NCBI GenBank assembly: GCA_947589395.1
Contig: CANQAA010000004.1
Coordinates: forward strand, 1 to 39,642
Direction: 5' to 3'
From: an uncultured Clostridia bacterium
Lineage (GTDB): Bacteria > Bacillota > Clostridia > Christensenellales > CAG-917
Length of the DNA stretch: 39,642 nt
Shown here: positions 1,505-32,870 of the stretch, in pieces
Position numbering within the stretch: position 1 is the first letter of the stretch
How the letters are laid out: each line of letters begins with the position of its first letter
Translations under genes and position numbers: made by a program
Notes under the pieces: generated by a model
What the model was told of the DNA's origin: nothing
Seen by the model: only the letters and a program-made list of their open reading frames with translations
Database searches by the model: none

Positions 1505-1533
1505 TTGTGCAAAATCCATTCGCCTAATATAAT
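1505..1533 (+). promoter_or_regulatory. Promoter of the HAD gene, leaderless architecture
   Basis: TTGTGC-N17-TATAAT, then 6 nt to the ATG at 1540. Confidence 0.55.
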
Positions 1534-1539
1534 AGGTGT

Positions 1540-2208
1540 ATGAAAGTCGTGCTCATTGACGTGGACAACACCCTGCTTGACTTCAAGCTGTGCTCTTTTC
1601 ACTCCATGCGCTCTGCGTGCGAGGATTTTTCCATACCTTTTGAAAAGGGCATGTTCGACGCGTTTTACAGAATAAACACGGGGCTTTGGCATGAAATTGA
1701 AAAGGGCGACCTCACGGTGGAAAAACTTTTTGAGATACGCTGGAACGTCATCTTCAAGGAGCTCGGAGTGAAGGGCGTGGACGGCGTGGAGTTCGAAAAG
1801 GACTTTCACAAATATCTCAACGTCAGCGCCGTGAAGGTCGAGGGAGCTGATGACGCGCTTGACTATCTCTCAAAAAAGTACGAGGTCTGCGTGGCGTCAA
1901 ACGCGCCCGCGCGTCAACAACAAGAGCGCATGAGGCGCGCGGGGCTTGACAAATATATCTCCCGCTACTTCATCTCCGAAGAGCTCAAAGCCTCGAAACC
2001 GGACAAGGAATTTTTCGACAAGGCGTTTTCAACTCTCAATATCTCGCCAAACGAGGCGGTCATGCTCGGAGACTCCCCCACAGCAGACGTCGCTGGCGCA
2101 AAGGCGTACGGGCTGAAGACCGTATTTTTCGACGCGGAGAACGCCGGCAACATAGCGGGAGCGGACTTCGTCATAAAAAAGCTCGTCGAGATAAAGACTG
2201 TGCTGTAA
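1540..2208 (+). CDS. HAD-superfamily hydrolase (YjjG-like, subfamily IA)
   Basis: DVDNTLLDF motif I, VASNAP motif II, KPD and GDSPTADVAGAKAYG motifs. Confidence 0.85.
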   Translation: MKVVLIDVDNTLLDFKLCSFHSMRSACEDFSIPFEKGMFDAFYRINTGLWHEIEKGDLTVEKLFEIRWNVIFKELGVKGVDGVEFEKDFHKYLNVSAVKVEGADDALDYLSKKYEVCVASNAPARQQQERMRRAGLDKYISRYFISEELKASKPDKEFFDKAFSTLNISPNEAVMLGDSPTADVAGAKAYGLKTVFFDAENAGNIAGADFVIKKLVEIKTVL

Positions 2209-13199: not shown

Positions 13200-13228
13200 T
13201 TGCCAAAAACGACGACATCTGTTATATT
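13200..13228 (+). promoter_or_regulatory. Promoter of the orphan sensor, leaderless architecture
   Basis: TTGCCA-N17-TATATT, then 6 nt to the ATG at 13235. Confidence 0.5.
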
Positions 13229-13234
13229 TTAGAT

Positions 13235-14218
13235 ATGAAAGCGTCGCTGCATTTTCCAACGCTGTTCAAGCGCATATTTTTGTGCCTGTTTTTGCCGTGC
13301 ATGCTCCTCATCCTGATCATGGTCGGGGTGTCGATCGGCGTTACGACGAGCACGACGGCGAAGACCTACGGCTCGTTGGTCAGCCAGCGCGCAAAAAGTT
13401 TTTCAAACGAGCTTGACATATATCTCAGCTCCGTCGACGCCTCGCTTTATCGCCTCTCTCACGACAGCAAAGTCGTGAGCGAATTGCTCGACGGGGGCGG
13501 TGTATCTTTGGGAGCCACTCTCAACACCACATGCGAATATTCCTTCCCCATATCCGGCATAACGCTGTACGCGCCCGACGGCAGGACGTACACGTCTTCG
13601 GGACTTGGCGGAGTCCCGTCGCTTGAAAGCCTGAAGCTCGCTCTGAGCGAATTTTTTGATAGCGACGAGCCTTCGGGACTTTTCATGCGCTTTAGCGAGC
13701 TTGCCGTCACCTACAACAACGTCTACTATCCCCCCGAAAACGGCGTTATAACGTATCTGAGGCGCATAAAGGGCGAGCAAGGGGACGTGGGATATATCGT
13801 TGCGGACATACTCCCCTCCGACCTATACGCCTCCTTTCTTGACGGAATGATCGAGGGCGGAAAAGCGTACATCACGAGCGGCGACAAATATCTCGCCGAC
13901 GACGGAAACGCCGCAGGGCGCAAAGCGGCGGAAAAATCGTATATCACGAGAAAGAGCGACTGCGCCGTCGGCGACTTCGGCGACGAGCTGTCCGTCCTTT
14001 TGATAGCCCCCAAAAAGCCCTATCGCTTGAGAGCCATGTGGATATCGCTCATCTTCGTCGCGACCGCGCTCGCTCTCACCGCCGCACTCGTCGCAGTCTC
14101 ATATAAGACGGCAAAACACGTCACAAAACGACTTGACGCACTTTACGACAGAATGGAAAATCAACAGCTCGCCCCCGAAGCGGCGAAAAAACAAAATTCC
14201 TCCGCCAAAGAGGAATAA
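13235..14218 (+). CDS. Orphan two-TM Cache-like sensor protein without a kinase domain
   Basis: TM (LFKRIFLCLFLPCMLLILIMVGVSIGV), about 230 aa extracytoplasmic region, TM (ISLIFVATALALTAALVAVSY), then a short tail and stop; no DHp/HATPase. Confidence 0.65.
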   Translation: MKASLHFPTLFKRIFLCLFLPCMLLILIMVGVSIGVTTSTTAKTYGSLVSQRAKSFSNELDIYLSSVDASLYRLSHDSKVVSELLDGGGVSLGATLNTTCEYSFPISGITLYAPDGRTYTSSGLGGVPSLESLKLALSEFFDSDEPSGLFMRFSELAVTYNNVYYPPENGVITYLRRIKGEQGDVGYIVADILPSDLYASFLDGMIEGGKAYITSGDKYLADDGNAAGRKAAEKSYITRKSDCAVGDFGDELSVLLIAPKKPYRLRAMWISLIFVATALALTAALVAVSYKTAKHVTKRLDALYDRMENQQLAPEAAKKQNSSAKEE

Positions 14219-16141: not shown

Positions 16142-17332
16142 CTAATTTGCGGAAGATATGAATTCGCCCGCCGTCATCCCGGTGATCTCTTTGAACACCT
16201 GTCCGAAATATTTCACGTCCGAGTAGCCGACCATTAAAGCGACTTCGTTTATCCTGTATTTGCCCTCGAGCAAGAGCTCTTTGGCTTTTGATATCCTATA
16301 CTCCGTGAGCAAAACGTTGAAGGTCTTGCCCAAGTTTTCCTTGAGCTCGTGCATGAGGTGGGACTCGCTGACGTACAGCTCGTCCGCAACGCTTTTGACG
16401 GAGAGCTTTTTCATGTAGTCGCGCTCGATTATCGCAAGCACGTCGCGGCTCAATTTTTTGAGTTTGACGTACTGCTCGCTCATGAGGTGCACGCTGCTGA
16501 TGTGGCTGTACGGGAGGTTTTTCACGCGCTCGAGCACAGCCCGATATACCTCGCCGCGCGATTTTGCGTCGCAAAACTTGTCGCTGACAACGAGGCGGAA
16601 GCGCACGTCCCCCGTTTGTTTTGCCAAAACGTCGCTCGCAATATTTGCTATCCTTCTCTCGTCGAGTGCGGAAGTCACGCACAAAAAGTCCTTTGTCATC
16701 ACGAGGGACTGCGCCGCAGCGGGAGCGAGCGAGGCGTCAAGAGCCCTCAAAAGCCCGTCTATCGCCCCCACATTCGCCTCAGAAGCCGCGCCGTAAATTA
16801 TGCGTCCCATGTCGTACGGGCGGATGTTGACGACGGACAGTCTCTTCAAAAACTCAGGATCGTTTTCGCCGCCGAGCCATCTCAAAAATATCTGAGTGCG
16901 CAAATAGTCGCTGCTGTTTTCAAAAACGCCTATCTTTGCGCGCGCCTCGCGCTTGCTCTTCAGTTTCGAGAGGACTTCGAGCACTTTTTTGACGAGTTCG
17001 TTGTTGTCGATGGGCTTCAAAAGATAGCCGGCGACGTCGCTTTCGAGCGCGCGCCGCACATAGTCGAAATCGCGATATCCGCTGTAGATGACGACGGATA
17101 GATCCGCGCCCGCGTCAAACAGCGTTCGCGCCATATCTATGCCGTCCATGACGGGCATGCGAACGTCGGTGATGATGATGTCGGGCTTGAGTTCTTTTGC
17201 CATCATCAACCCCTGTTTGCCGTTGGCGGCCTCCCCGACAACTTCTATGTCGATGGCGTGCCAATCTATCGTGTCGCGCATGCCCATGCGCACGATATAT
17301 TCGTCGTCTACGATAAGCAATTTGTATGCCAT
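16142..17332 (-). CDS. YesN-type response regulator with AraC DNA-binding domain
   Basis: LLIVDDEYIVRMGMRD receiver, ITDVRMPVMDG, C-terminal two-HTH AraC domain (YFGQVFKEITGMTAGEF). Confidence 0.93.
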   Translation of the reverse strand: MAYKLLIVDDEYIVRMGMRDTIDWHAIDIEVVGEAANGKQGLMMAKELKPDIIITDVRMPVMDGIDMARTLFDAGADLSVVIYSGYRDFDYVRRALESDVAGYLLKPIDNNELVKKVLEVLSKLKSKREARAKIGVFENSSDYLRTQIFLRWLGGENDPEFLKRLSVVNIRPYDMGRIIYGAASEANVGAIDGLLRALDASLAPAAAQSLVMTKDFLCVTSALDERRIANIASDVLAKQTGDVRFRLVVSDKFCDAKSRGEVYRAVLERVKNLPYSHISSVHLMSEQYVKLKKLSRDVLAIIERDYMKKLSVKSVADELYVSESHLMHELKENLGKTFNVLLTEYRISKAKELLLEGKYRINEVALMVGYSDVKYFGQVFKEITGMTAGEFISSAN

Positions 17333-17338
17333 AATCTT

Positions 17339-17367
17339 ATTTTACCACAAAAATTAACTTCGTTCAA
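17339..17367 (-). promoter_or_regulatory. Promoter of yesN, leaderless architecture
   Basis: TTGAAC-N17-TAAAAT (extended TGG before the -10), then AAGATT (6 nt) to the ATG. Confidence 0.55.
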
Positions 17368-28389: not shown

Positions 28390-31980
<3,591 letters not shown>

Positions 31981-31986
31981 TCATAT

Positions 31987-32015
31987 ATTATAGCTTTATA
32001 AAAATTTTAAGTCAA
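31987..32015 (-). promoter_or_regulatory. Promoter of PFOR
   Basis: TTGACT-N17-TATAAT on the minus strand. Confidence 0.7.
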
Positions 32016-32083
32016 TAATTATGCGAGCATTTTTTATTTCCGGTTTTTGGATTTTTAATATTTTCTCAATAAGAAAAATTGCG

Positions 32084-32111
32084 TTGTAATCGGGCGCGGA
32101 GGTGGTATAAT
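32084..32111 (+). promoter_or_regulatory. Promoter of ispE, leaderless architecture
   Basis: TTGTAA-N16-TATAAT with extended -10 (TGGTATAAT), then ATCCAT (6 nt) to the ATG at 32118. Confidence 0.65.
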
Positions 32112-32117
32112 ATCCAT

Positions 32118-32870
32118 ATGCTGTTCGTAGAGGAAAAAATACCCGCAAAAGTCAACTTGTCTCTCGCCGTGACCGGAAAGCGCGGCGGCATGCACACGCT
32201 TTGCATGATCGTGGCGGAGTGCGAAGATCTCTTCGACGAGGTCTATCTCTCCCCCGAAAAAGGGAGCGATTTCAAGTTGCGCTTTGCTCAAGGGGACTAT
32301 AAAGAGCTCGACGAGGGTCGGTTTGCAAACTTTCTCGCCCCAAAACTCAAGCTCGTCTCCGACACGCTCAACATAGGAGGAGAGCTTACGATACGAAAAA
32401 ATATCCCTCTCGGAGGAGGGCTGGGCGGCTCGTCGGCGGCGATCGCGGGGACTCTCAGACTTCTCGACAAACTCGGCTACGACCTTCCCTTCGACCCCGT
32501 GCGCTTGGGCGGCGACGTCCCCGCGATGATGAGGGGCGGACTTTTGAGAGTGGAGGGCGTGGGCGAGATCCTGACCCCCTTGAGCTATCCAAAAAAACTC
32601 GAGTTCGACGTCCAAATAGCCGAAGGCGGCGTGGACAGCGCGGCGTGTTACGCCCTCTACGACAAGATGGCGAGCATGGGCGAATTCTTCCCCTCCCCCA
32701 TTCCGATGACCGTCAAGGAGGCGCTGTCAAGTCTCAGAAACGACCTCACCCTTCCCGCGACGAGGCTGAACCCAAATGTAAAGACCTTGCTTGAAAGCAT
32801 GAAAAAGACAAACTCCCGCGTCATCATGTCCGGAAGCGGCAGCGCGGTCGTCGCGATACGCGAACGCTGA
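32118..32870 (+). CDS. ispE: 4-diphosphocytidyl-2-C-methyl-D-erythritol kinase (GHMP kinase), short form
   Basis: IPAKVNLSLAVTGKR, IPLGGGLGGSSAAIAG, LGGDVPAMMRGG, MSGSGSAVVAI. Confidence 0.82.
   Translation: MLFVEEKIPAKVNLSLAVTGKRGGMHTLCMIVAECEDLFDEVYLSPEKGSDFKLRFAQGDYKELDEGRFANFLAPKLKLVSDTLNIGGELTIRKNIPLGGGLGGSSAAIAGTLRLLDKLGYDLPFDPVRLGGDVPAMMRGGLLRVEGVGEILTPLSYPKKLEFDVQIAEGGVDSAACYALYDKMASMGEFFPSPIPMTVKEALSSLRNDLTLPATRLNPNVKTLLESMKKTNSRVIMSGSGSAVVAIRER

Follow-up and report, generated by a model that had tools for sequence, protein, structure and literature searches.

Is the mRNA of the ispE-family gene in this window made without a leader? The window, by which is meant the whole 39,642-nt stretch of DNA that was analysed, carries a promoter whose -10 box lies just 6 nt before the ispE start codon. 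A sequence-only reading of the region had described this promoter as a near-consensus extended -10 element whose start site falls on the ATG, and had pointed to three more genes in the window with the same 6-nt gap. The ispE region is organized as follows.

32084..32089, + strand: -35-like hexamer TTGTAA of the ispE promoter (with the -10 hexamer at 16-nt spacing, 10 of 12 consensus matches)
32098..32105, + strand: GGAGGTGG, an SD-like sequence that overlaps the spacer and the extended -10 element and is probably unused
32103..32111, + strand: extended -10 element TGG-TATAAT
32112..32117, + strand: ATCCAT, the 6 nt that separate the -10 hexamer from the start codon (-6 to -1 in promoter numbering)
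32118..32870, + strand: ispE-family gene, 250 aa, whose transcript is predicted to begin with the A of ATG 32118

The ispE start region

Direct reading of the sequence bears out the promoter as it had been described: the arrangement TTGTAA-N16-TGGTATAAT-N6-ATG spans 32084-32120, with the TATAAT hexamer at 32106-32111 and a 16-nt spacer that ends in TGG. A promoter scan of 31900-32200 found this proximal promoter as the sole one on the ispE strand. Before the upstream in-frame stop there is just one alternative start codon, a TTG at -39, and the N-terminus MLFVEEKIPAKVNLSL shows the usual short lead-in of IspE proteins, which fits initiation at ATG 32118. The first 60 nt of the gene fold weakly (-6.2 kcal/mol, z +1.66); this is compatible with SD-independent initiation but settles nothing.

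The product matches IspE models over nearly their full length (E 5e-26), and its GHMP kinase domains score above the Pfam cut-offs. Its best NCBIfam matches fall below the curated IspE cut-offs (NF011202, 91.6 vs 204; TIGR00154, 87.5 vs 138.7). Because these cut-offs are missed despite near full-length coverage and GHMP domains, the protein is called IspE-like, a divergent and short member of the CDP-ME kinase family.

The ORF predicted for PFOR on the opposite strand probably starts too far upstream, at 31971 (- strand; window 31911-31971). At 31911 (- strand) there is an alternative ATG, preceded at 8 nt by a GGAGG, and the alignments of most homologs begin at approximately residue 18-21. 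The window PFOR is ~81-92% identical to PFOR of uncultured gut Clostridia MAGs, whose sources include rabbit, horse and ruminant; two of these MAGs are labelled Christensenella sp. (NCBI order Christensenellales).

The identical 6-nt gap is confirmed by sequence in the other three genes as well, and in each of them a TTGnnn hexamer precedes the -10 box at 17-nt spacing.

1505..1542, + strand: TTGTGC-N17-TATAAT-N6-ATG of a HAD hydrolase gene (1540-2208), conserved in genus orthologs
13200..13237, + strand: TTGCCA-N17-TATATT-N6-ATG, with extended -10, of a sensor gene (13235-14218)
17330..17367, - strand: TTGAAC-N17-TAAAAT-N6-ATG, with extended -10, of a yesN-like response regulator gene (16142-17332)

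The sensor gene product matches dCache weakly, with a score below cut-off, and lacks a kinase domain; its gene and one for a solute-binding protein are divergently oriented, and a yesM/yesN pair lies nearby.

Spacing of -10 boxes and start codons across the genome

The sequence-only reading had argued that a gap shared by four genes was unlikely to arise by chance, and had proposed that a sharp 6-nt peak among genes lacking an SD would support leaderless initiation. In the whole genome (1.32 Mb), TATAAT-N6-ATG occurs 41 times, compared with 9 occurrences of a reversed-pattern control and 12 of TATAAT-N8-ATG. Gene-level counts were made on 434 kb, or 33%, of the incomplete 1.32 Mb assembly, sampled as 16-20-kb stretches together with the window. 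Gene starts were called by a simple, home-made, hexamer-based finder that makes no use of upstream signals, and -10 hexamers with at most 1 mismatch were counted by their distance to the start. A -10 hexamer at gap 6 was found in 20 of 211 promoter-proximal genes, while each of the gaps 1-5 and 7-10 accounted for 0-4. Dinucleotide shuffles gave 2.8 +/- 1.7 at gap 6, with a maximum of 8 in 1000 shuffles. None of the operon-internal genes in the sample had a -10 hexamer at this distance. The proposed peak is thus present in a one-third sample of the genome, and the argument against coincidence holds.

The hexamers at gap 6 have the company expected of promoters. Matches of at least 4/6 to TTGACA were found 16-18 nt upstream in 15 of the 20 gap-6 genes but in only 30 of 191 controls (Fisher P 7e-8), and a TGn preceded the -10 box in 9/20 and 16/191, respectively. 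An SD was absent from 19 of the 20; the exception by motif is ispE itself, with its GGAGG at 15 nt. TATAAT-N6-GTG is not enriched genome-wide (7, compared with 9 for the control). This specificity for ATG points to a role of translation, beyond a transcription-start preference alone.

With a looser definition of the -10 box, an excess of about 28 non-SD genes is seen at gaps 5-7, equal to 13% of the 211 promoter-proximal genes. Predicted leaderless genes make up ~13% of promoter-proximal and roughly 8% of all genes, and the SD mode is dominant, with 57% of starts. The gap 5-7 set includes ispE, dnaA and an SMC/RecF-like ATPase gene that adjoins dnaA and is divergent from it, together with genes for mini-RNase III, queH, Mur ligases, murB, glmS, DAP dehydrogenase, fumarase and HAD hydrolases. 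These functions are mostly ordinary housekeeping ones.

Control genomes and orthologs

Control genomes were run through the identical pipeline, with samples of 200 kb each. The gap-6 peak was seen in G011, from the same genus (7/113), and in G038, from the same order (12/85). No such peak was found in the samples of G032, also from the order (0/83), or G179, from the same class (1/107), and the signal was weak or unclear in G042 and G045, from the same family. Since two control genomes lack the peak and others have it, the peak is not created by the method, and the predicted leaderless trait varies within the order. Class-wide, the ratio of TATAAT-N6-ATG to TATAAT-N8-ATG counts is 41/12 in the genome of the window and, judged by eye, near or below 1 in most other members. 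Outside the order, N6 counts exceed N8 counts in G109, G178, G148, G131 and G154, which may be further users of leaderless initiation.

For ispE, the comparison covered 47 orthologs from the order with candidate starts, scored for a -10 hexamer with at most 1 mismatch and an in-frame start codon. A gap of exactly 6 nt accounts for 21 of the 47, and each other gap for 0-3; several further orthologs have TAATAT at 6-7 nt. Many orthologs in the genus read TTGAAA-N17-TGnTAAAAT-N6-ATG with no SD. Some orthologs lack the arrangement, for example those of G045, G049 and G021, where ispE has a GTG start behind GGAG or AGGAG. HAD orthologs in the genus mostly have gap 6, and two use GTG. For dnaA, TTGnnn-N17-TATAAT-N7-ATG recurs across the genus and in parts of the family and order; of 30 orthologs, 18 have a 7-nt gap, and no SD is evident. 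The sequence-only reading had suggested that leaderless initiation is a normal mode in this lineage; the 6-nt peak and the conserved orthologs favor that suggestion, but the mode is a minority one beside the dominant SD mode.

The start codon of glmS is fixed, as the catalytic cysteine (Cys2) must follow the initiator Met. In G000, G002, G006 and G038, glmS has a -10 box at gap 5-6 and no SD. Some copies within the genus read CATATATTG or CATATACTG, followed almost directly by ATG, while in others ~10 additional bases, which include an SD of the GGAGG type, stand between the same -10 box and the ATG. This contrast within one genus suggests that small indels convert glmS between leaderless and SD-led modes.

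Alternative explanations

A feature on the side of conventional initiation is GGAGGTGG, a good match to the anti-SD located just 5' of the ispE -10 box, which the sequence-only reading had not mentioned. A farther-upstream promoter could give a leader in which GGAGGTGG directs initiation at ATG 32118, leaving TATAAT incidental. This would require the GGAGG to act from 15 nt, an outlier in this genome, where the distance from GGAGG to the start among 358 sampled genes is mostly 3-10 nt, with a maximum at 4-7. Moreover, most ispE orthologs in the genus lack GGAGGTGG and have no SD, yet keep the -35 and -10 elements at ~6 nt, and the only promoter that the scan of 31900-32200 found on the strand is the proximal one. 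SD-led translation of ispE is therefore improbable, and GGAGGTGG is probably incidental, because its spacing is outside the usual range and it is missing in most relatives. Chance sharing of the gap by the four genes, or sharing imposed by a high A+T content upstream and by short intergenic distances, can be given almost no weight. The upstream regions are indeed A+T-rich, and a few TATAAT matches occur at many gaps, but the shuffles fall far short of the observed count, two related genomes have no peak, and the spacing is kept in orthologs.

A third possibility refines the leaderless reading and is not exclusive of it. The ispE transcript may have a leader after all, though one of just 1-5 nt, with start-site choice varying by 1-2 bases. 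Small above-background counts at gaps 5 and 7 in the relaxed profile and the 7-nt gap of dnaA in most of the genus are consistent with this idea, but the profile peaks sharply at 6 nt, the gap at which transcription would normally begin with the A of the start codon; such a leader is the less probable variant. Taken with the spacing and ortholog data, ispE is very probably leaderless. It would exemplify a minority mode that is used genome-wide and whose conservation extends over the genus, much of the family and some of the order.

From these sequences we infer the exact transcription start of ispE, the lack of a leader and 70S-type initiation. In the proposed mechanism, a promoter of the sigma-70/A type (TTGTAA, 16-nt spacer, extended -10 TGGTATAAT) would drive ispE, and ATG 32118 would supply the first base of the transcript with its A. 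The mRNA would then have AUG at its very 5' end, or no more than 1-2 bases before it, and translation would start without SD pairing. Most likely, the 5'-terminal AUG and initiator tRNA would bind the 70S ribosome directly, like leaderless mRNAs elsewhere.

Comparison with known leaderless systems

Leaderless initiation itself is already known in bacteria. Zheng et al. 2011 (PMC3160421) described leaderless genes with a TA-like signal, in which, as here, a Pribnow box lies directly 5' of the start codon with no SD; as here, a TG element precedes the box in some low-GC genomes. Among Firmicutes, that study found leaderless genes (mean 4.2%, range 2.4-16.6%) for the most part in Lactobacillales and Mycoplasma, and its text does not mention Clostridia. 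In Deinococcus-Thermus, too, leaderless transcripts arise from a -10 element that lies a few bp upstream of the ORF, and a -35 box enhances expression (PMC12340547). About one third of D. radiodurans genes are involved, compared with roughly 8% here, where -35 boxes are common. GeneMarkS-2 is described in PMC9581028 as assigning leaderless transcription to 21.6% of bacterial species.

Leaderless transcripts of the same class and promoter type have been mapped in Clostridia (PMC9045289, PMC5171806, PMC7438776), at frequencies that agree with the earlier remark that they are less noted in this group. They amount to ~2-3% of transcripts in one study (PMC9045289) and to 15 genes in C. difficile (PMC7438776). 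In C. phytofermentans, 4% of intergenic sense transcription start sites are leaderless, generally with another upstream start site and an RBS (PMC5171806). By comparison, the set described here is predicted from sequence, lacks an SD and is conserved in orthologs. No report of leaderless initiation for this Christensenellales-like lineage was found in the literature searched, which covered the field in part.

Implications

What is new, and well supported by the comparisons above, is a predicted lineage-wide case of leaderless initiation in uncultured Christensenellales-like Clostridia, with apparent switching of glmS between leaderless and SD-led modes in one genus. Mapped Clostridia have been reported to be nearly free of leaderless transcription, whereas here it appears to be common, conserved and present on essential genes. 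It is likely that in this mostly uncultured order of gut Clostridia, leaderless initiation is a stable secondary mode for housekeeping genes, that dnaA is leaderless genus-wide, and that genes of the glmS type switch modes when an SD-bearing leader of about 10 nt is gained or lost downstream of a -10 box that itself stays conserved. Start-codon annotation is affected, as SD-based gene callers will misplace such starts. Kasugamycin is a drug that spares leaderless mRNAs, and the leaderless mode, if real, predicts differing sensitivity to drugs of this kind. Within one genus, glmS genes that have a short SD leader and glmS genes that lack it would offer a close-range natural comparison of how one initiation mode replaces another.
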